A stretch of 37,006 nt of DNA from Pseudomonadota bacterium (GTDB lineage: Bacteria; Pseudomonadota; Gammaproteobacteria; Burkholderiales; Burkholderiaceae_C), in the NCBI GenBank assembly GCA_021841865.1, contig JAKCDM010000019.1, positions 1-37,006 of the forward strand, read 5' to 3'. The translations under genes were made by a program, and so were the position numbers. This document shows positions 24,863 to 34,458 of the stretch, piece by piece; positions within the stretch are counted from its first letter, which is position 1, and every line of letters begins with the position of its first letter. The notes under the pieces are model-generated. The model had not been told where the DNA came from. It worked only from the letters and a program-made list of their open reading frames with translations, and ran no database searches.

Positions 24863-25408
24863 TCAGCGTCGCTGGCGAACCAGCTCCAGCAGACCCTGCA
24901 GGACCCGCAACGGAGGCACCGGGCAGCCGGGAATTCGCAGGTCCACCGGCAGCACTTCGGACACCCCGCCGCACACCGCGTAGCTGCCGGCGAACTCGCC
25001 GCCGTCGGCCGCGCAGTCGCCCAGCGCGACGACCAGGCGCGGCTCGGGCATGGCCTCGTAGCTGCGAAGCAGCGCGTCGCGCATGTGCAGGGTCACCGGC
25101 CCGGTCACCAGCAGCACGTCGGCGTGCCGCGGACTGGCCACGAAGCGCAGGCCCCGCCCCTCGATGTTGTAGTAGGGGTTGGACAGCGCCCCCAGCTCGA
25201 ACTCGCAGCCATTGCACGAACCGGCATCGACCACGCGCACCGCGAGCGAACGGCTCAGCAGGCGCAGCAACTCGGCGTCGATGTGCTCGCGTGCGACGGC
25301 GCCAGGCTCGAGCGCCGGCGACGCGCCAGCCGACCCGGAGGGCGGTTCGACGACCGGCTCGGCGGAAATCGGGCCGACACGAGCGACCCGGCGCAGGATG
25401 TGCCACAT
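24863..25408 (-). CDS. Hydrogenase-4-like small subunit (HyfI/HycG/NuoB family)
   Basis: A 181-residue homologue of the NuoB/hydrogenase small subunit, shorter than E. coli HyfI. Four cysteines for the proximal 4Fe-4S cluster are in place: Cys65 and Cys68 in AGSCNGCEFEL (the CxxC spacing of group 4 hydrogenases, not the adjacent pair of NuoB), Cys132 in GDC and Cys162 in IPGCPVPP. Residues about 14-45 are a Pro/Ser/Ala-rich extension. It should pass electrons between the cluster and whatever the large subunit binds. Last gene of the six-gene operon, four bases after the large subunit. Confidence 0.88.
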   Translation of the reverse strand: MWHILRRVARVGPISAEPVVEPPSGSAGASPALEPGAVAREHIDAELLRLLSRSLAVRVVDAGSCNGCEFELGALSNPYYNIEGRGLRFVASPRHADVLLVTGPVTLHMRDALLRSYEAMPEPRLVVALGDCAADGGEFAGSYAVCGGVSEVLPVDLRIPGCPVPPLRVLQGLLELVRQRR

Positions 25409-25412
25409 GGTT

Positions 25413-26936
25413 TCAGGTGTCGTGCCCGGAGTACGACAGGTTGAAGGATTTGTTGATCAGCGGGAAGTCGGCGATGATGTCTTGCGTGGCCGCGAGTTCC
25501 ACGGCCGGCCAGTTCTGCCACGACGCATCGTGCGCGTGGGCCTGCGCCACGCGCCCGTCGGCGTCCAGGCGCAACGCCACCAGCACGGGGCCGCGCCAGC
25601 CCTCGACCAGTCCCAGCGACCAGCCACGCGCGAAGCCCGCTGCCCGCCCCGGCCAAGGCGCGCGAAGCGCGCCGGTCGGCAACGACAGCAGCAGCTCGCG
25701 GCACAGACGCAGCGATTCGAACAATTCTTCGAAGCGCTGCGCCATGCGCGACGCGACGTCCCCGGCCGTCTGCAGCGGCACGCGCAGCTCATGGCCCGCA
25801 TACAGCGGCATGTGGCGCCGCAGATCGATGTCCTGCCCGCTGGCGCGGGCGGCCAGCCCCAGCATGCCCAGCTCGCGGGCGAGCGCGGGCGCCACGCGGC
25901 CGGTGGCCCGGAGCCTGTCCTGCAGCCCCGCGTGCTGGTCGAAGGCCGCCAGCAGCACGCGCGCATCGTCGGCCAGGCGAAGGCATTGCGCGTCGAGCGC
26001 GCCCAGCGATGCCGGGGCAATGTCGCGGGCGACGCCCCCGGGGCACAGCGCATCCATCGGCCAGCGCGCGCCGAAGGCCTGCTGGTTCACGCGCAGCACC
26101 TGTTCCTTGAGCATCGAGAACTGCGACTGACCGAAGGTCAGCCCGGTGTCGCCCGCGATGGCCCCGATGTCGCCCAGGTGGTTGGCGATGCGCTCGCGCT
26201 CGAGCAGCAGCGCGCGCAACTGTCGCGCCCTGGGCGGCGCCTGCAGCCCGGCGGCGGCTTCCAGCGCCATGCAGCAGGCCCACGCGCCGGCCACCGTGCT
26301 GTCGCCGCTCAGGCGCGCCGCCAGGCGCACCGCGGCCGCGGCATCGCGGCGCTGAAACAGCCGCGCCACGCCCTTGTGGGTCCAGCCCAGGCGCTGCTCC
26401 AGGCGCAGCACCTGCTCGCCGAGCAGCGAGAAGCGGAACTGTCCCGGCTCGATGATGCCGGCGTGCACCGGGCCGACGTTGATCTCGTGCACGCCCTGGC
26501 CTTGCACCTCGACGTACTCGTAGGGCTCGGCATGCTCGCCGCGGCGCCGCTCGCCGGCGTCGGGGCGCAGCGGGTGCCAGTCGGCGCTCCAGGCCTGGTG
26601 CCGAAGCCAGGGGCGCGGGTCCATGCCCTGCGCGAGCGGACCCAGCAGGTCGCGCAACGCGCGCTGCAGGCGCTGCGCGACCGGAAACCACGCGTGCAGG
26701 CCGGGGTAGCGCCCGCCGGCGCCCACGTCGAGCCGGGCCAGCAGCAGGCCTTGCTCGCGCAGCCACAACCCGAATACCACGCTGCCTCCCTGCTCCGCCG
26801 GCTCCCCCCACAGGCTGAGCAGGCGCGCGCCTTCGTCGTGCAGTTGCTGCGCGCTGCGCGCCCACTCCGAGGCATCGAGCCGAAGCTGCGTCAGCGGCAG
26901 CTCGAGTTCGGCCGTCAGCAAGCAGGACTCGCTCAT
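25413..26936 (-). CDS. Hydrogenase-4-like large subunit lacking the Ni-Fe cysteines (HyfG/HycE, NuoCD-like)
   Basis: A 507-residue fusion of a NuoC-like domain (about 1-140, with YPGLHAWFP and a DLLGP segment) and a NuoD/hydrogenase-large domain (EINVGPVHAGIIEPGQFRF onward). Aligned by eye with E. coli HycE, the first nickel-binding CxxC falls on Ser210-Gly-Asp-Ser213, and the C-terminal CxxC (DPCYSC in HycE) falls on LSYSG, that is Ser501 and Gly504. All four Ni ligands are thus missing, and with them the basis for hydrogen turnover. The frame is open and otherwise well conserved, so this is not decay. It matches the Ehr (energy-converting-hydrogenase-related) class. Its ATG overlaps the stop of the HyfF homologue. 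Confidence 0.88.
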   Translation of the reverse strand: MSESCLLTAELELPLTQLRLDASEWARSAQQLHDEGARLLSLWGEPAEQGGSVVFGLWLREQGLLLARLDVGAGGRYPGLHAWFPVAQRLQRALRDLLGPLAQGMDPRPWLRHQAWSADWHPLRPDAGERRRGEHAEPYEYVEVQGQGVHEINVGPVHAGIIEPGQFRFSLLGEQVLRLEQRLGWTHKGVARLFQRRDAAAAVRLAARLSGDSTVAGAWACCMALEAAAGLQAPPRARQLRALLLERERIANHLGDIGAIAGDTGLTFGQSQFSMLKEQVLRVNQQAFGARWPMDALCPGGVARDIAPASLGALDAQCLRLADDARVLLAAFDQHAGLQDRLRATGRVAPALARELGMLGLAARASGQDIDLRRHMPLYAGHELRVPLQTAGDVASRMAQRFEELFESLRLCRELLLSLPTGALRAPWPGRAAGFARGWSLGLVEGWRGPVLVALRLDADGRVAQAHAHDASWQNWPAVELAATQDIIADFPLINKSFNLSYSGHDT

Positions 26937-28429
26937 GACGCGCCTCCCAGCAGCACCGCGGCAGCGGCATGCCAGGCAGCCGCGACGAAGCCGGGAATCC
27001 ACAAGCCGAGCATCAGGACCAGCGCCAGGTGCACCCAGGCCGGCAACAACCAGGGGCGCCGCGCCAGCGTGCGCAGCGGCACCTCGCGCGTGCGCCCGAA
27101 CACCATCGGCTGCACGCGCCACAGCACCGCCGCCAGCGCCACCAGCAGGCCCAGAAGAAGGGGCACCACACTCCAGGCGGCGACCGTCACGGCGCTGCCG
27201 AGGATCAGGAATTCGCTGACGAACACGCCGAAGGGCGGCAGCCCGACGATTCCCAGGGCCCCCAGCAGCAGCACCCAGCCCAGCGCCGGAGAGCGTGCGC
27301 GCAGGCCGCGGATCGCATCCAGCGCCGGCGTGCCGGCCTTTTGCGACGCGTGCCCCACGCTGAAAAAGATCGCGCTCTTGGTCAATGCATGCACGCACAG
27401 GTGCAGCAACGCGCCGAAGGTGGCCAGCGGCGTGCCCAGGCCGAAGCCGAAGGTGGCCAGGCCCATGTGCTCGATCGAGGACCAGGCGAACAGGCGCTTG
27501 GCATCGCGCTGGCGCCACAGCAGCAGCGACGCGAACAGCACCGAGACGACGCCGAAGCCCTGCAGCAGAAGCCCGGGCCACGCCGCGTGCACGCTGCCCT
27601 GCACGAGCACGCGCAGGCGCAGCACCGCGTACAGCGCCACGTTGAGCAGCAGGCCCGACAGCACCGCCGACACCGGCGTGGGCCCTTCGGCGTGCGCGTC
27701 GGGCAGCCAGCTGTGCAGCGGCACCAGGCCCACCTTGGTGCCGTAGCCGACCAGCACGAACACGAAGGCGGCTCCCATCGCCGCCGGCTCCAGCGCGCCG
27801 CGCGCGGCGGCCAGTCGGGTCCACAGCAGCGCCTGCGCCCCCTGACCGCCCAGCACGCGCTCGGCCGCGGCGTACACCAGCACGGTGCCGAACAGCGCGA
27901 GGGCGAGGCCGACTCCGCACAGGATGAAGTACTTCCACGCCGCCTGCAGCCCGGCCTGCGTGCGGTACAGGGACACCAGCAGCACCGTCGACAGCGTGGC
28001 TGCCTCCATGGCCACCCACAGCAGTCCCAGGTTGTTGCTCAGCAAGGCCAGCAGCATCGTGAACACGAACATCTGGAACATCGCGTGGTACAGGCGCAGT
28101 CGCTGCCCGCCCAGGCGGCCGGCCGCCTGTTCGACCCGCATGTACGGCACCGAGAACGCAGCGGTCCCGGCCGCCACGAAGGTGGTCAGCACGACCAGGT
28201 AGGTGTTGAGCGCGTCGGCGTACAGCTGCCCGCCCAGCGCGCTCAGCGGCCCGTCGACGGCGACCGCCACGCCCAGCACGCAGGACAACGCGAAACCGAG
28301 CACGCTGAAGCCCAGGTTCAGCAGGTCGGCGCCGGCGCGCAGGCCCAGCCAGGCCAGCGTGGCACTGCCTGCCAGCGGAAGCGCCAGCATCGCCGCCGGA
28401 AGCCACTGCAACTGCAGCGTCGCGTGCAT
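26933..28429 (-). CDS. Hydrogenase-4-like antiporter subunit (HyfF family, NuoL/M/N-like)
   Basis: A 498-residue inner-membrane protein with about 14 hydrophobic helices, related to Mrp antiporter and complex I pumping subunits. Typical proton-path residues are present: Glu142 in WVAMEAATLSTVLL and Lys232 in GYGTKVGLVPLHSWLPDAHA, plus the broken-helix segment FAWSSIEHMGLATFGFG. It starts two bases after the HyfE-like gene. Together with the HyfB-like subunit it should move protons or sodium ions. Confidence 0.9.
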   Translation of the reverse strand: MHATLQLQWLPAAMLALPLAGSATLAWLGLRAGADLLNLGFSVLGFALSCVLGVAVAVDGPLSALGGQLYADALNTYLVVLTTFVAAGTAAFSVPYMRVEQAAGRLGGQRLRLYHAMFQMFVFTMLLALLSNNLGLLWVAMEAATLSTVLLVSLYRTQAGLQAAWKYFILCGVGLALALFGTVLVYAAAERVLGGQGAQALLWTRLAAARGALEPAAMGAAFVFVLVGYGTKVGLVPLHSWLPDAHAEGPTPVSAVLSGLLLNVALYAVLRLRVLVQGSVHAAWPGLLLQGFGVVSVLFASLLLWRQRDAKRLFAWSSIEHMGLATFGFGLGTPLATFGALLHLCVHALTKSAIFFSVGHASQKAGTPALDAIRGLRARSPALGWVLLLGALGIVGLPPFGVFVSEFLILGSAVTVAAWSVVPLLLGLLVALAAVLWRVQPMVFGRTREVPLRTLARRPWLLPAWVHLALVLMLGLWIPGFVAAAWHAAAAVLLGGAS

Positions 28430-28431
28430 GC

Positions 28432-29115
28432 TCAGCCCTCCGGCGGCGGCGACGCCGGCCACTCGAGACTGTCGAACTGTTCGCGGATGCGCAGCACGAA
28501 CACCCCGAGCACGAACACGCCCACCAGCAGGTCGAGCCCGATGCCCAGCTCCACGACCATCGGCATGCCGCGGGTAGCCGCGGTGGCCGCGAACAGCAAG
28601 CCGTTCTCCATGGCCAGGAAGCCCAGCACCTGGGCGATGGCGTTGCGCCGGCTGATCATCATCAGCAGCGCGAGAAACACCACCGCCATGGCGATGCCCA
28701 GCAGTCCGCGCGTGGCGGCGTGCGCCAGGTGGGCCAGGGGCTGCGCCAGCGCGAACGCGCACAGCACGAGCGCCATGCCCAGCAATTGCATCAGGGGAAT
28801 GTTGAACAACGGCTCGATGTCCCATTGCGCGTGCAGGCGCCGGGTCAGGCGCAGCAGCACCCAGGGCAGCACGATCACCTTGAGCAGCAGCGCGAGCAGC
28901 GCCGAACCGTACAGCTCCGGCTGCGCCGAGCTCCAGCCCACGAGCACCGAAGTCAGCGCGAGCAAGGCCCCCTGCCACGCGAACAGCCAGATCAGACCCA
29001 TCACCCGGCGCTGCGACAGCATCGCGAACGACAGCAGCAGCAGCAGCGCCGCGAACAGGTGGATCCACGACAGCACCGGCGACGACACGGCCAGCGCGGA
29101 GAGACTGGAGTGCAT
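28432..29115 (-). CDS. Hydrogenase-4-like membrane subunit (HyfE family)
   Basis: A 227-residue protein with about seven hydrophobic helices, HyfE type: WIHLFAALLLLLSFAMLSQR at the start, NAIAQVLGFLAMENGLLFAA in the middle, and VELGIGLDLLVGVFVLGVFV near the end, the last two being NuoK-like segments. ATG 29115 gives a five-base gap after the HyfC homologue; an in-frame GTG at 29124 would overlap that stop (GTGA) and add three residues. Confidence 0.87.
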   Translation of the reverse strand: MHSSLSALAVSSPVLSWIHLFAALLLLLSFAMLSQRRVMGLIWLFAWQGALLALTSVLVGWSSAQPELYGSALLALLLKVIVLPWVLLRLTRRLHAQWDIEPLFNIPLMQLLGMALVLCAFALAQPLAHLAHAATRGLLGIAMAVVFLALLMMISRRNAIAQVLGFLAMENGLLFAATAATRGMPMVVELGIGLDLLVGVFVLGVFVLRIREQFDSLEWPASPPPEG

Positions 29116-29120
29116 GGCGT

Positions 29121-30074
29121 TCACGGCTCGAGCATCAGCCCCACCCACAGCCCGAGCACGGCCAGCAGGAAGGCGGTGGCGAGGAATTCGGGCGCCCGGA
29201 ACACGCGCAGCTTGGCGCTGCTGGTTTCCACCAGCGCGATGCCGCCACCGGCCAGCGCGAGCTTGCACGTCAGCGCGACCGCCGCCGGCAGCAGCCACGC
29301 CAGGCTCCGGCCGCCAGACGCCAGCCCCCACGGCGCGAACATCGCGTAGCCCATGCAGATGTAATTGAACATCTTCAGGCTCTGCGCCCATTCGATCAAG
29401 GCCAGGTGGCGCCCCGCGTACTCGAGCACCATGGCCTCGTGGATCATCGTGAGCTCCAGGTGCGTGCTCGGGTTGTCGACCGGCAGGCGAGCGTTCTCCG
29501 CCAGCAGCACCATGACGAAGGCAACGGCCCCGAACGCCAGCGCCGGGTGAATGCTCGGCCCGCGCGCCTGCAGGGCCTCGGCCAGCACCGGCAACTGGGT
29601 ACTGCCGGCGAGCAGCGACGCGCTGAACACCACCATCAGCAGCGCCGGCTCGGCCAGGAAACCCAGCATCATCTCGCGCCGCGCGCCGAGCCCGCCGAAC
29701 GCGCTGCCCGGATCCATCGCCGCCAGCGCCTGGAACACGCGCGCCAGCGCGAACAGGCCGACCAGCGCGACGGCATCGGCCACCGAGGCCAGTGGAAGAT
29801 CCGTGCTCAACGACGGGATGATGGCGGCGGCCGCGCTCATGCTCGCGAGCTGCACGTACGGCACGGCACGAAACAGCGGGCTGGCGCCGTCGGGCAGGAT
29901 CGGCTGGCGCCGCAGCAGCTTGCGCAGGTCCCGATAGGGCTGCCACAGCGGCGGCGCGGAACGATTCGACAACCACGCCCTGCACTGCGCGACCCAGCCC
30001 GACAGCAGCGGCGCCAGCAGCAGCGCGGCCAGCACGCTGAGCACCTGGGTGACGAGGGCGTCGAGCAGGCTCAT
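29121..30074 (-). CDS. Hydrogenase-4-like membrane anchor (HyfC/HycD family, NuoH-like)
   Basis: A 317-residue polytopic protein of the NuoH/HycD family that links the hydrophilic arm to the membrane arm. Conserved cytoplasmic-loop blocks are LGARREMMLGFLAEPALL (129-146) and ENARLPVDNPSTHLELTMIH (193-212), with acidic residues typical of the quinone-cavity/coupling region, followed by EAMVLEYAGRHLALIEWAQ. Its ATG overlaps the HyfB-like stop (ATGA). Confidence 0.9.
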   Translation of the reverse strand: MSLLDALVTQVLSVLAALLLAPLLSGWVAQCRAWLSNRSAPPLWQPYRDLRKLLRRQPILPDGASPLFRAVPYVQLASMSAAAAIIPSLSTDLPLASVADAVALVGLFALARVFQALAAMDPGSAFGGLGARREMMLGFLAEPALLMVVFSASLLAGSTQLPVLAEALQARGPSIHPALAFGAVAFVMVLLAENARLPVDNPSTHLELTMIHEAMVLEYAGRHLALIEWAQSLKMFNYICMGYAMFAPWGLASGGRSLAWLLPAAVALTCKLALAGGGIALVETSSAKLRVFRAPEFLATAFLLAVLGLWVGLMLEP

Positions 30075-32095
30075 CGCAGCACCACGATGAGCAACAGCAG
30101 CAGCGTGCCGAAGGTGTAGATCAGGTAGCCGGCCATTCCCACCCCCTGCACGCGCCCGAGCAGGCGCGCTGCGCCGAGCACGCCGCGCGCCACCGCCGCG
30201 TACGCGCGGCTTCGCAGCGGGTCGGCGATGCTTTCGCGGTAGACCGGCTGCGCCTGCTGCGGATCGGGCGCCTGCACGTGCAGGTCGAACAGCGGCGCGA
30301 ACAGGCGCCGCACCGGCTGGCCGAAGCCCTCGGCACTGTCCTGCATGCGCGGCGAACCCGGCAGTTCCCCGCAGGCCCACAACGGCGCGCGCCGGATGCG
30401 TGCGCCGCGCCACGAGTGGGCCGCCAGCACGCCCGCTGCAGCCAGCGCCAGCCCGAGCAGGACCAGCGCGAGCGGATCGAAGGTGGCTCGTTGCGCCGAA
30501 ATCGGCGCCAGGCGCGACCAGCCGGGGCCGGTGGCGACTGCGCTGCCCAGCAGCGGCAGCTCGACCAGCCGGATCAGGCGCAGCACCAGCCCGGGGAACA
30601 GACCGGTCGACACGCCGGCGACCGCCAGCCACAGCAGCCCGGCGCGCTGCGCCCAGCCGGGATCGTGCGCGGCCTGCAGCCCCGGCTCGCGCGCACGCCC
30701 CAGGAAAATGACCCCGTAGAACTTGACCATCACGTAGGCGGCCAGCGCGGCCACCAGCACCAGCAGCGCCGCGCCCAGCGCCACGAGCATGCCCAGCAGC
30801 GCCTGCGGCAGCGCCGGCGACTGCACGAAGGCCTGCAGCAGCAGCCACTCGGCCACGAAACCGCCGAACAACGGCAGGCCGGCCATGGCCAGCGTCGCGG
30901 CCAGCGTGGTCCAGCCGACCCACGGCATGCGCTGCAACAGGCCGCCGAGCCGCCCCAGGCTGCGCTGGCTGGTGGCATGCATGACCGAGCCGGTGGCCAG
31001 GAACAACAGGTTCTTGACCATGGCGTGGTGCAGCAGGTGGAACAGCATGGCGGCCAGCGCGAGCGCGGCCAGCGCGGGAAGTCCGGCGGCGCGGAACACC
31101 AGGGTCAGCCCGAACGCCGCGAAGGCCAGGCCCATGTTCTCGATGGACGAGTACGCGAGCAGGCGCTTCATGTCGTCCTGCACCGCCGCGTGCGCCACCG
31201 CTCCCAGCGCACCGGCGAGTCCCAGCGCCAGCAACAGCAGGCCCCAGGCCATGCTGTCGACGTGCAGCAGGTCCAGGCTGGTGCGCAGCAACGCGTACAT
31301 CGCCGTTTTCAGCATCACCGCGCTCATCAGCGCCGATACCGGCGACGGCGCCGCCGGATGGGCCTCCGGCAGCCATGCATGCAGCGGAACCAGCCCGGCC
31401 TTCGCGCCGAAGCCGAGCACGGCCAGCAACATCGCGGCCGAGGCCACCCACGGCGGCAGCGCGGCGTGCCGCATGGCGTCGAAGGACAAGCCCTGCAGCC
31501 AGTCCTGCGAATGCGGGGCCGCTGCGTGCCCGAGCAGCGTGAACATGAGCAGCAGGCACAGTCCGCCCAGATGTGCCATCAGCAGGTACAGGAAGCCCGC
31601 GTCGCGCACCTCGGGCATGTCATCTCGCGTGAGCACCAGCAGGTACGACGCGACGGCCATCAACTCCCAGGCGAGCAGGAAGCCGAAGGCGTCGGCGGCG
31701 AGCACGACCAGCGCCATGGCGCCCAGGAACACGTGGTACAGGCAGGCGATCTGCCCGGGCGGCGCGCCCTCGCCGTCGCGGAAATAGCCGCTGGCGAACA
31801 CCGAACTGCCCAGGCTCGACGCGCCGATCAGCAGCAGGAAAAAGCCCGACAGCGAATCCAGGCGCCAGCGCAGCACGAACCCGGACGCGCCCAGGCCAAG
31901 GCTCGCCTCGGCCGGCGGAGCGAACACGGCGAGCAGGCCGGCGACGGCGACGACCCCGCAGACCACGGCCCCTGCCGGGAACACCCCATGCGCAGAGCAG
32001 CGCGTGCAGTTCGGGCGCACCAGCGCGGCCAAGCCCAGCAGCAGCCAGACGACAACCGCGCCAAGTTCGACGGCAAGCAGCAACGCGGGGTTCAT
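30071..32095 (-). CDS. Hydrogenase-4-like antiporter subunit (HyfB/HycC family, NuoL-like)
   Basis: A 674-residue inner-membrane protein, close to E. coli HyfB in length, with about 16 helices. Proton-path residues include Glu144 in FLLAWELMAVASYLLV and Lys232 in GFGAKAGLVPLHAWLPEAHP; the broken-helix block is LLAYSSIENMGLAFAAFGL. The last about 100 residues form the lateral extension typical of HyfB, ending in a hydrophobic helix. First gene of the six-gene operon. The bases before the ATG (GCCCACC) offer no Shine-Dalgarno, so translation may be leaderless. It diverges from the RHH regulator gene across the dyad at 32103-32151. Confidence 0.9.
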   Translation of the reverse strand: MNPALLLAVELGAVVVWLLLGLAALVRPNCTRCSAHGVFPAGAVVCGVVAVAGLLAVFAPPAEASLGLGASGFVLRWRLDSLSGFFLLLIGASSLGSSVFASGYFRDGEGAPPGQIACLYHVFLGAMALVVLAADAFGFLLAWELMAVASYLLVLTRDDMPEVRDAGFLYLLMAHLGGLCLLLMFTLLGHAAAPHSQDWLQGLSFDAMRHAALPPWVASAAMLLAVLGFGAKAGLVPLHAWLPEAHPAAPSPVSALMSAVMLKTAMYALLRTSLDLLHVDSMAWGLLLLALGLAGALGAVAHAAVQDDMKRLLAYSSIENMGLAFAAFGLTLVFRAAGLPALAALALAAMLFHLLHHAMVKNLLFLATGSVMHATSQRSLGRLGGLLQRMPWVGWTTLAATLAMAGLPLFGGFVAEWLLLQAFVQSPALPQALLGMLVALGAALLVLVAALAAYVMVKFYGVIFLGRAREPGLQAAHDPGWAQRAGLLWLAVAGVSTGLFPGLVLRLIRLVELPLLGSAVATGPGWSRLAPISAQRATFDPLALVLLGLALAAAGVLAAHSWRGARIRRAPLWACGELPGSPRMQDSAEGFGQPVRRLFAPLFDLHVQAPDPQQAQPVYRESIADPLRSRAYAAVARGVLGAARLLGRVQGVGMAGYLIYTFGTLLLLLIVVLR

Positions 32096-32102
32096 GGTGG
32101 GC

Positions 32103-32151
32103 TTGTATGCGCATGCTATTCACATGCGATGTGCTTTGCATGGTAATACAA
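32103..32151. promoter_or_regulatory. Concentric dyad operator covering both divergent promoters
   Basis: Two nested inverted repeats share the same centre (32127). The outer arms are TTGTATGCGCATGC (32103-32116) and GCATGGTAATACAA (32138-32151), matching in 11 of 14 positions. The inner pair is CACAT-GCG-ATGTG (32121-32133). Overall 17 of 24 symmetric positions pair. Each outer arm carries an outward-reading -10-like box: TACAAT on plus (32147-32152) and TACAAG on minus (32107-32102). A start site seven bases past the minus box would fall on the ATG of the HyfB-like gene, in line with the lack of Shine-Dalgarno sites on both genes. Most likely the binding site of the adjacent RHH protein (inference). 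Confidence 0.65.
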
Positions 32152-32162
32152 TGCCAGACATC

Positions 32163-32423
32163 ATGGAACAACGAACCACCCGGCTGACCGTTCTGATCGA
32201 TCCGCGCAAGAAGGAACTGTTCGAGCAGCTGTGCGCCCGCGAGGACCAGACACCGTCACAGGTCGTTCGACGTCTGATTCGCTCGTACATCGAACAGCGC
32301 CTGGGGCGCCCATGGCAACCCGGCGAGCCGATTGACGCCTTGCTTGCGCTGGAGTCGCCCGCCGCCGACGGCGCCCGCGGCGCGTCCGGGAACGCGCCGC
32401 GGGCCTTGCCGAAGGCTCCCTGA
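32163..32423 (+). CDS. Ribbon-helix-helix (CopG/Arc/MetJ-type) transcriptional regulator
   Basis: An 86-residue protein. RTTRLTVLIDPRKKELFEQL is a typical RHH beta strand (TTRLTVLID, alternating residues contact DNA) followed by helix A; TPSQVVRRLIRSYIEQRLG is helix B, with the S-x-x-V-R-R-L-I pattern of RHH domains. Residues after about 50 are low-complexity and probably disordered. An in-frame ATG at 32151 is possible, but it lies inside the operator; 32163 fits the predicted start site better. No toxin gene is adjacent, so it is not an antitoxin on present evidence. It diverges from the hydrogenase-like operon and probably controls it and itself. Confidence 0.8.
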   Translation: MEQRTTRLTVLIDPRKKELFEQLCAREDQTPSQVVRRLIRSYIEQRLGRPWQPGEPIDALLALESPAADGARGASGNAPRALPKAP

Positions 32424-32549: not shown

Positions 32550-34458
32550 AATAAACTTGGGTCTGACCCACGTCGAGCGCGCCGGTGAGATCGCTGACCA
32601 GGTAGGTCAGCGGACTGGCGGCGACCAAGGGATAGGCCGCGAACGAAACCTGGGGCTCGGCCGAGTCCAGGGTCACGGTGCGGGCGCTGCGCTGGAAACT
32701 CCACGAGCCATTCGAGCCCTGGACGAAATCATCCAGCGCCACGACATCGCCCCGCTCCAGGCCCACGGTCCTTCCCGAAGGGGTCGCCGTCGGCTGGAAT
32801 CCCGTGACGGCATAGGAGTCGACGCCAGCGCTATCGTTCATGACCACGCGCAGGTAGCCGCTCATGAAGAACTGCCGGTTCGGGTTCCACAGATGGGCGG
32901 GAATCAGGTAGCCCAGCGAGGCCTGTCCGCGCAGCACCGACGGATCGGGCAGCAGCGCCACGGCGGAACCTTGCAGCGTCGGCCATTGGGCGCTGAGGTC
33001 GAAGCTGAACTGCCAGGTCGGCGCCCCCGGATCATGGGTGTAGCTCGTCGCCGGCTGCATCGTTTCCTCGCAAGGCTGCTGCGCTGGCGATGCCGCCTCG
33101 TAGACCGTGCAGCTCGGGCTTCCCGCGGCCACCAGGACGGCGTCGAAGCTGTTGGTCACCGTGGCGTCGAAGGATGCGCCGACCACGGGCTGCGTGGCCA
33201 CGCTGGCGGTGAGCTGGGGCTGCTGGGCCTTGTAGAAGTCGTAGTAGGCCGGAAGCAGGGAGTTCACGTAGCCGGGAGCGAACGCGCTCTGCCCACCGAT
33301 CAGCAGGTGTCCGGCGTAGTCGATCGACGGGTAGTTGGCCATCATGGCCGGAAAGTACACGCTCAATCCGGTCGCCTGGCTGTCGCTGTAGCTGGCCCGG
33401 TCGTAGACCACGGCCGCCTGGGTCGCACGGATCACGCCATCGGCTGCCGTGCTGAGCGCGGCGTCCGCTCCGAAGGACTTGAGCAGGGCCGACTGCGTGT
33501 TGCCGACCCACAGCAGTTCATCGACCAGGTCGGTCGGGCTCGTGGAAGGCTCGACGAAATTCTGTCCCATGAAGTCGAGGGAGCGCATGCGCGCATCCGC
33601 CAGCACCTGCCAGGCCAGCACCGAACGCGCCGCGTACGGCTGCAGCGCGCTTGCATACGAGTCCATCGCCTGCACCAGGGCGGGCATGGCGTGCAGGTCC
33701 ACCACGGACAAGGTGGTCGGGTCCACCAGATTCTGGCCCATGTAGGCATCGACGATGTCGCGCCCGATCGTGGCGCCGCTGGCGCCAGGCAGTGCCTGCA
33801 AGGAGGACAGCCACGGCGTGTAGTCCCAGCCTTCGCTGGGCTCGACATCCTGCGATGCCACCAGGTAGTGGGCATAGGGGGAAAGGGCTGAAGCGACCTC
33901 GGCATCGGCCATCAGGCAGGCGTCGAAGCCGATCACGGAGAATTGCGTCCCCGAGCCCTGCACGGCCTGCGTCAGCTGCCCGAGCGTCATGGTCGTGCCC
34001 GTGACCTCGTCCGAGCCGAAACCTCCGTTGGGTCCACCGCCGTGATCCCACAACACCAGCATGTAACGGTTCGCGGGGTAATGGCTCACTCCCCAGCGGA
34101 GAAAATCGCGCAAGGTCGAGCCGCGCCCCATGTCGATCCCGCTGTCAGGACCCAGATCCTGCAACTTCTGCAACTTGCCATTGCTCACCAGGTAGCGCTG
34201 TACATGGGTCCAGTCGATTCCCAGCGGCCCGGCCTGGCTGTCCGCGCCGCCGGTTTCCAGCACGATATTCAATTGACTCGTGCGCGAAACTGCCAGCATT
34301 TGCTCGATATTCGTGCTGGCTGCCTGCCCGTCACTCTCCAGGTTGCTTCCGACCATGTAGACGAGCACCGTGTCCGTCACATTTCCGGAACCACCGCCGC
34401 AGGAAACCAGCAGCAACGCGCCGAGGCTCGCCGCGAGGCATTTGAGAATACGGAACAT
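32548..34458 (-). CDS. Clostripain-family (peptidase C11) lipoprotein
   Basis: A 636-residue exported cysteine peptidase. The signal peptide MFRILKCLAASLGALLLVSC ends in a lipobox with lipidated Cys20, followed by a glycine-rich linker. The caspase-like C11 domain (about 28-400) starts TVLVYMVGSNLESDG and has the catalytic pair His139 (VLWDHGGG) and Cys181 (IGFDACLMAD). The C-terminal about 220 residues look like beta-rich accessory domains. C11 enzymes usually cut after Arg or Lys. An AAGGGG ribosome site precedes the ATG. The last residues (QTQVY and the stop) are encoded by the REP-like block, so the original 3' end may have been altered. Monocistronic; base composition looks less GC-rich than flanking genes. 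Confidence 0.85.
   Translation of the reverse strand: MFRILKCLAASLGALLLVSCGGGSGNVTDTVLVYMVGSNLESDGQAASTNIEQMLAVSRTSQLNIVLETGGADSQAGPLGIDWTHVQRYLVSNGKLQKLQDLGPDSGIDMGRGSTLRDFLRWGVSHYPANRYMLVLWDHGGGPNGGFGSDEVTGTTMTLGQLTQAVQGSGTQFSVIGFDACLMADAEVASALSPYAHYLVASQDVEPSEGWDYTPWLSSLQALPGASGATIGRDIVDAYMGQNLVDPTTLSVVDLHAMPALVQAMDSYASALQPYAARSVLAWQVLADARMRSLDFMGQNFVEPSTSPTDLVDELLWVGNTQSALLKSFGADAALSTAADGVIRATQAAVVYDRASYSDSQATGLSVYFPAMMANYPSIDYAGHLLIGGQSAFAPGYVNSLLPAYYDFYKAQQPQLTASVATQPVVGASFDATVTNSFDAVLVAAGSPSCTVYEAASPAQQPCEETMQPATSYTHDPGAPTWQFSFDLSAQWPTLQGSAVALLPDPSVLRGQASLGYLIPAHLWNPNRQFFMSGYLRVVMNDSAGVDSYAVTGFQPTATPSGRTVGLERGDVVALDDFVQGSNGSWSFQRSARTVTLDSAEPQVSFAAYPLVAASPLTYLVSDLTGALDVGQTQVY

Follow-up and report, generated by a model that had tools for sequence, protein, structure and literature searches.

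The 37,006-nucleotide stretch of DNA analysed here (the window, a contig of a Pseudomonadota bacterium) encodes a complex related to group 4 hydrogenases, in which the ligands of the Ni-Fe centre have all been replaced and the site they occupied has become another, conserved one. Its operon comprises six genes. HyfI supplies the ligands of a single [4Fe-4S] cluster, HyfB and HyfF keep residues of the ion path, and the large subunit has no nickel ligands. The sequence features tested identify the complex as an Ehr and set it apart from hydrogenases, complex I and MBS. As to function, we put at about even chances a nickel-free, redox-coupled ion pump of the Ehr class, to which no direction (energy-conserving or energy-consuming) is assigned.

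Organisation of the operon

Six minus-strand genes running from position 32095 to 24863 encode HyfB-, HyfC-, HyfE-, HyfF-, HyfG- and HyfI-like proteins, and profile and PDB matches extend the homology to group 4 hydrogenase and complex I over the whole complex. The features are as follows:

32163..32423, plus strand: divergent ribbon-helix-helix (RHH) protein of 86 aa, a possible regulator, 67 bases from hyfB
30071..32095, minus strand: HyfB-like antiporter-type membrane subunit, 674 aa (NCBIfam hydrogenase 4 subunit B, 694.6 bits, cut-off 667)
29121..30074, minus strand: HyfC/NuoH-like membrane anchor, 317 aa (PF00146, 4.4e-31; best PDB match HycD, 7z0s_D, 2e-40)
28432..29115, minus strand: HyfE-like membrane subunit, 227 aa (NCBIfam NF008556, 1.3e-24, 87.3 bits, below the cut-off of 136)
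26933..28429, minus strand: HyfF-like antiporter-type membrane subunit, 498 aa (NCBIfam hydrogenase 4 subunit F, 678.4 bits, cut-off 543)
25413..26936, minus strand: HyfG/HycE-like large subunit without Ni-Fe ligands, 507 aa plus stop, the main feature
24863..25408, minus strand: HyfI/NuoB-like small subunit, 181 aa (PF01058, 1.8e-28; HycG, 7z0s_G, 9.2e-34)

The preliminary description of this DNA had placed the large-subunit gene correctly in coordinates, strand and frame (25413-26936, minus, 507 aa), and the frame is intact, with zero internal stops. Its further claim of a coupled operon is borne out by a 4-base overlap (ATGA) of the hyfG-like gene with the end of hyfF, an arrangement that hyfC repeats on hyfB, and its view of the gene as maintained is supported by purifying selection (dN/dS of 0.24, 0.34 and 0.35 against three same-genus copies, Nei-Gojobori) and by strong matches in 27/27 same-genus genomes, one of them partial. 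The host assembly is a draft of 212 contigs, 92% complete and with 5.5% contamination. It contains no PF00346 match other than the Ehr large subunit, complex I NuoD being seemingly absent, and a second, NuoD-like PF00346 match is present in 25/27 same-genus genomes; the absence from the draft is probably an assembly gap.

No counterparts of HyfA, HyfD, HyfH or HyfJ lie between hyfB and hyfI, and no formate dehydrogenase was found among the identified neighbours in the window. A gene for a tRNA 2-selenouridine synthase follows on the opposite strand. Upstream, the 67-base spacer between hyfB and the RHH gene (32096-32162) contains the inverted repeat CGCATGCTATTCACATGCG at 32110-32128, a possible candidate operator; a promoter scan found 0 sites with 0.3 expected. 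An RHH homologue (L021:15764-16003) matches RHH_9 at 2.6e-22, and RHH_9 genes were recovered at 10/114 loci by the gene caller and at 16/100, the window included, by ORF clustering. Still further upstream, a 636-aa minus-strand gene (32551-34458) gives a weak clostripain-like match (1.4e-07) far below the cut-off.

The family set comprises 120 loci (the window, 13 relatives, 80 named contigs, 6 plasmids and 20 class genomes), and all six genes were detected in 101 of them; of the 19 incomplete loci, 16 have no room at a contig end, and L107, L112 and L119 miss a gene despite room. HyfI retains Cys65, Cys68 and Cys132 in 116/116 loci and Cys162 in 115/116 (one gap), with the CNGC spacing of hydrogenases, so that one [4Fe-4S] cluster is expected. 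The motif CxxCxxCxxxC occurs in called genes at 2/120 loci, and nowhere in the interval that reaches from 8 kb before the large-subunit start to 4.5 kb after it. In the antiporter-type subunits, HyfB (n=114) keeps Glu144 in 108 loci, Lys232 in 111, Lys263 in 92 and Glu416 in 113, and HyfF (n=115) keeps Glu142 in 110, Lys232 in 112 and Glu406 in 115. A loop of HyfC reads DNPSTHLELTMIHE in place of the E. coli EAEQEL motif, follows the pattern DNPxTHLELTMIHE in almost all of 104 loci, and is 3 residues longer than that of HycD.

The vacated Ni-Fe site

In a phmmer alignment against the PDB (7z0s_E, E 2.3e-41), S210-G-D-S213 aligns with CGIC of HycE and S501-Y-S-G504 with CYSC, and a MAFFT alignment with HycE, HyfG and NuoCD places both CxxC motifs in the same columns. 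Both replacement motifs had been read exactly in the preliminary description, and the alignments with HycE, HyfG and NuoD-type proteins leave all four nickel positions of the window protein without cysteine. Cys221, Cys222 and Cys298, which had been named there as conceivable substitutes, are placed elsewhere and are neither invariant nor nearly so across the family. The four ligand positions together contain no cysteine in 110/120 loci, one in 10/120 and two or more in none, a count that retains two rows, probably truncated or mis-framed, in which several fixed columns show out-of-family residues. The missing cysteines are neither chance nor sequencing error. Among the 120 loci, position 210 is S in 99, C in 9, A in 9, R in 2 and V in 1; position 213 is S in 92, T in 22, A in 5 and C in 1; position 501 is S in 101, A in 10, N in 6, W in 2 and a gap in 1; and position 504 is G in 116, A in 3 and a gap in 1. 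Nearby residues are nearly fixed, with D212 in 118/120, N495, K496, S497, Y502 and D506 in 117/120 each and N499 in 116/120, which argues that the nickel site was turned into another conserved site rather than merely decaying. Glu163, aligned with MbhL residue 21, is likewise kept in 118/120. That the protein is a dead or structural remnant without a catalytic role, as might be thought with no donor gene seen nearby and the substrate not known, is very unlikely in view of the purifying selection, the persistence in all 27 same-genus genomes (one match partial), and the near-invariance of pocket and cluster residues across distant carriers.

The C-terminus differs as well, the protein ending one residue past D506 in 117/120 loci, with the maturation peptide absent. 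In HycE this peptide is removed by the maturation protease, which cuts after Arg537. The last residue of the structure model aligns with HycE 537, hycE encoding 569, and a solved-structure chain range ending at HycE 537 agrees with such a cut. The available part of a paper on the maturation protease is also consistent with it (PMC7654741).

The family is carried at strong scores by 38/60 genomes (that of the window and 59 relatives). HypD, which is needed for the Ni-Fe cofactor, was found in 15 of these 38 carriers and not found in 23, the window's own 92% complete draft included; draft genomes may miss genes, and the 23 also include the near-complete G014 (3 contigs), G034 (1), G043 and G058. 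Among 274 class genomes HypD is present in 16/34 carriers versus 91/240 non-carriers (p 0.35), the 34 being 36 matching genomes less G207 and G299, whose weak matches were judged to belong to other clades; a link of the family to Ni-Fe maturation was rejected, with no dependence either way. The lost ligands, the absent maturation peptide and the persistence of the gene where HypD was not found make a Ni-Fe site of the known kind impossible, as had been claimed beforehand. A true [NiFe] hydrogenase with shifted ligands, to which HycE as closest solved relative and the 15 carriers with HypD might point, is on the same evidence extremely improbable, its site cysteines being absent and HypD not found in the other 23.

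Comparison with known systems

In 2013 Marreiros and co-workers reportedly presented Ehr as connecting complex I with the group 4 hydrogenases. The earlier assignment of the window complex to this class agrees with the available portions of published Ehr descriptions, in which these are group-4-like complexes without Ni-Fe motifs and of unknown function (PMC4378227, PMC10284858, PMC12342949). The Sulfobacillus Ehr is alike in that six genes are syntenic, those near the large subunit showing homology to nuoH, nuoL, HyfE and HyfB (PMC4378227); the Ehr of Sulfobacillus, Nitrospira and Geobacter are likened to the window complex by published description, not by sequence. Another electron-transfer role has been suggested for Ehr (PMC10432482), formate raised the abundance of all Ehr subunits of Geobacter relative to conditions containing hydrogen (PMC7894505), H2 did not raise Ehr expression in N. 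moscoviensis (PMC12342949), and an FDH-Ehr partnership has been proposed in Riflemargulisbacteria and Saganbacteria (PMC6349859).

Formate hydrogenlyase-2 (hydrogenase 4, Hyf) of E. coli is similar in sequence to the window operon and has its genes in the same order (B, C, E, F, G, I); the window operon differs in lacking HyfA, D, H and J, the nickel ligands and the C-terminal peptide, and in its HyfC loop. HycE is the closest solved relative of the large subunit. Complex I (NuoCD, NuoB, NuoH, NuoL/M/N) resembles the complex in fold, in the absence of nickel ligands and in its protein end. However, the quinone-head residues of complex I are absent, with G211 for Tyr87 and I162 for His38 (T. 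thermophilus numbering, read from the alignment), the small subunit has CNGC instead of adjacent cysteines, and the six genes include no NADH module.

A sulfane-sulfur or polysulfide reductase like MBS would share the loss of nickel and would suit carriage by Thiomonas, a genus with a sulfur-oxidiser lifestyle, and by other sulfur oxidisers; we regard it as decidedly unlikely. Pyrococcus MBS, in the available part of its description, is a nickel-less group-4 relative with antiporter-type subunits and a precedent for such a complex acting on another substrate, but it has three cluster cysteines, no Glu21 equivalent and two of the four large-subunit cysteines (PMC7684303), as opposed to the four cluster cysteines, Glu163 and complete lack of residual site cysteines in the window complex. 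Since all four HyfI cysteines are present, an MBS-type open cluster is not expected here, and Methylobacter, Rhizobium and Paraburkholderia are carriers too.

Distribution and phylogeny

A pattern scan of named genomes returned at least 582 stretches encoding a relative at E <= 1e-3, and the best 80 of these, retained for analysis, bear titles of Beta- and Gammaproteobacteria, Nitrospirae and Acidobacteria; Methylobacter, Rhizobium, Paraburkholderia and Thiomonas are among the carriers. At E <= 1e-20, 64 plasmid records contain relatives, from Rhizobium, Azospirillum, Cupriavidus and other genera; Rhizobium johnstonii 3841 (plasmid pRL11, L129) and Cupriavidus metallidurans CH34 are laboratory strains among the carriers. 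A quick tree was built from 69 rows, in which the 45 of the window family form one clade with support 100, and this and two other cysteine-less clades stand apart from HycE, HyfG and L037 with support 99, in a tree rooted on NuoD that has only three NiFe references (support 38 as a group) and carries a long-branch warning. A single loss of nickel would be the simplest history, though not a proven one, and it is from this grouping of three nickel-less clades away from HycE and HyfG that we infer the 'repurposed' enzyme of the preliminary description.

The tails of the two other cysteine-less clades are MDYAINEASFGL and FQDFPII. The second clade (L033-L036, L182-L185), HycE-like and also present in the genus of the window, has a MDYAINEASFGL-like tail ending in DR; its member L036 has a small subunit with a fused 4Fe-4S ferredoxin domain, with CrcB and DUF190 genes alongside. 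The third (L039, L186-L188, L199) has the FQDFPII tail and also ends in DR. L194-L196 and L201, which occupy a long branch, are NuoD-like proteins that carry the motifs RICVPDP and DACPPEVDR and resemble neither complex I nor hydrogenase.

Neighbouring genes and inorganic carbon

Genes flanking the operons were called by a codon-usage script written for this analysis, which may miss genes. SulP profiles hit 16/114 loci, and 17 of the 19 hits, at 15 loci, fall within the first three genes upstream on the same strand as the operon, a class comprising 161/1063 flanking genes (binomial 1.5e-12, assuming an independence that these hits do not have). SulP is also the commonest Pfam family among the scanned upstream neighbours (9/61, the 61 being from 71 same-strand ones). 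The label of L023 is a STAS domain only and that of L065 a 160-aa contig-edge fragment, leaving about 14 loci with an upstream SulP gene or piece. By eye, from pairwise identities, the SulP proteins fall into four groups, and 9 changes on a quick family tree are required to account for the label, with L023 counted; SulP of L101 scores above the sulP cut-off and far below that of BicA. In L101 (+2 bases) and L023 (-4 bases) hyfB is directly adjoined by a gene for a Cam-type gamma-carbonic anhydrase of 186 aa, whose VIH and AHxSxVHGP stretches fit the zinc histidines of Cam; L095 has a partial copy 4.4 kb upstream. These being the only such cases in 120 loci, the link to Ehr is rare. Cam-like matches occur in 37/274 class genomes, close to the Ehr-linked enzyme only in G184 (76%) and G069 (58%, with a stop), and in G184 the distance from this enzyme to a RuBisCO gene is about 5 kb, and to Ehr about 1.07 Mb. 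At L203:8806-9363 a Cam-type carbonic anhydrase adjoins hyfB, and ahead of it come a STAS protein that stands alone and a CitMHS transporter containing TrkA-C domains.

Upstream genes in some loci also include CitMHS, TauE, Usp and cytochrome bd. Spermidine-synthase-like genes (16/114 loci by profile; 9/21 flank hits close upstream in the orientation of the operon, binomial 0.002), RHH_9 and DUF1275 (7/114 loci) are judged weaker signals. Spermidine-synthase-like genes stand beside the operon in L051-L054, L073, L126, L127 and L131, some with universal stress protein genes.

These neighbours raise an alternative in which the complex would act on behalf of inorganic carbon or some other anion, HyfB and HyfF conducting an ion flow that powers CO2 hydration or is paired with an anion permease. 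In its favour are the repeated upstream position of SulP in several groups, the abutting carbonic anhydrases and the enzyme near RuBisCO in G184. Parts of complex I are similarly reused in NDH-1MS. DAB2, as far as the available text describes it, is a further precedent for such reuse and resembles the window complex in a NuoL-like membrane part (PMC13144422), and relatives of the window operon have carbonic anhydrase or SulP genes alongside in some cases. The window complex differs from DAB2 in its complete HyfG/HyfI redox core, and neither SulP nor carbonic anhydrase adjoins its operon. No beta-carbonic anhydrase was found among 1765 called genes near the operons (query E. coli Can), the CitMHS/TrkA_C and TauE neighbours fit sulfate or sulfite equally well, and RuBisCO large chain is as common with Ehr (19/34) as without (120/240; Fisher p 0.58, 274 class genomes). 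Autotrophy as a simple explanation was ruled out by this last comparison. The near-invariant cluster cysteines, too, favour redox chemistry, and we consider the inorganic-carbon alternative unlikely. The same low probability attaches to an Ehr redox core coupled to capture of inorganic carbon or a related anion with SulP and Cam-type enzymes, whose genes would have been recruited several times. A search of the literature by titles and abstract openings, covering few subscription journals, found no paper joining SulP, carbonic anhydrase or DIC to Ehr or complex I, nor one on a Thiomonas hydrogenase-4 with lost cysteines.

A nickel-free redox-coupled pump

The nickel-free pump draws support from the fold and closest relatives, the cluster cysteines, the ion-path residues of HyfB and HyfF, and the six-gene synteny. 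In such a mechanism a soluble electron carrier would dock on HyfI, whose cluster would exchange electrons with a substrate bound where HycE holds its Ni-Fe centre, in a pocket probably lined by Glu163, Arg208, Gly211-Asp212-Ser/Thr213 and the C-terminal NKSxNxSYSGxD tail. Protons may travel via Glu163, and movement of the HyfC loop would then drive ion transfer in HyfB and HyfF. The substrate would most likely be a membrane quinone or other small organic acceptor, bound in a manner unlike that of complex I. Against the pump stand the electron donor, not seen nearby, the absent quinone residues of complex I, and the poor modelling of parts of the pocket, residues 157-164 and 501-507 being of low confidence.

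Implications

The annotations given to relatives of the operon are hydrogenase 4, formate hydrogenlyase, NADH-quinone oxidoreductase or nickel-dependent hydrogenase. With E. coli HycE as query, the 24 best-scoring places in the 274 class genomes all belong to the nickel-less family, so that matches of this sort can mislead when hydrogen metabolism is deduced from them. For acidophilic Sideroxydans, a formate hydrogenlyase containing subunits of a group 4 hydrogenase has been inferred (PMC5178258), and nickel-less family loci L078, L085 and L086 come from the same bacterial group. The window complex adds to a known, widespread class, and its conserved pocket motifs, together with the SulP and carbonic anhydrase neighbours of its relatives, provide targets for direct tests of the role of Ehr.
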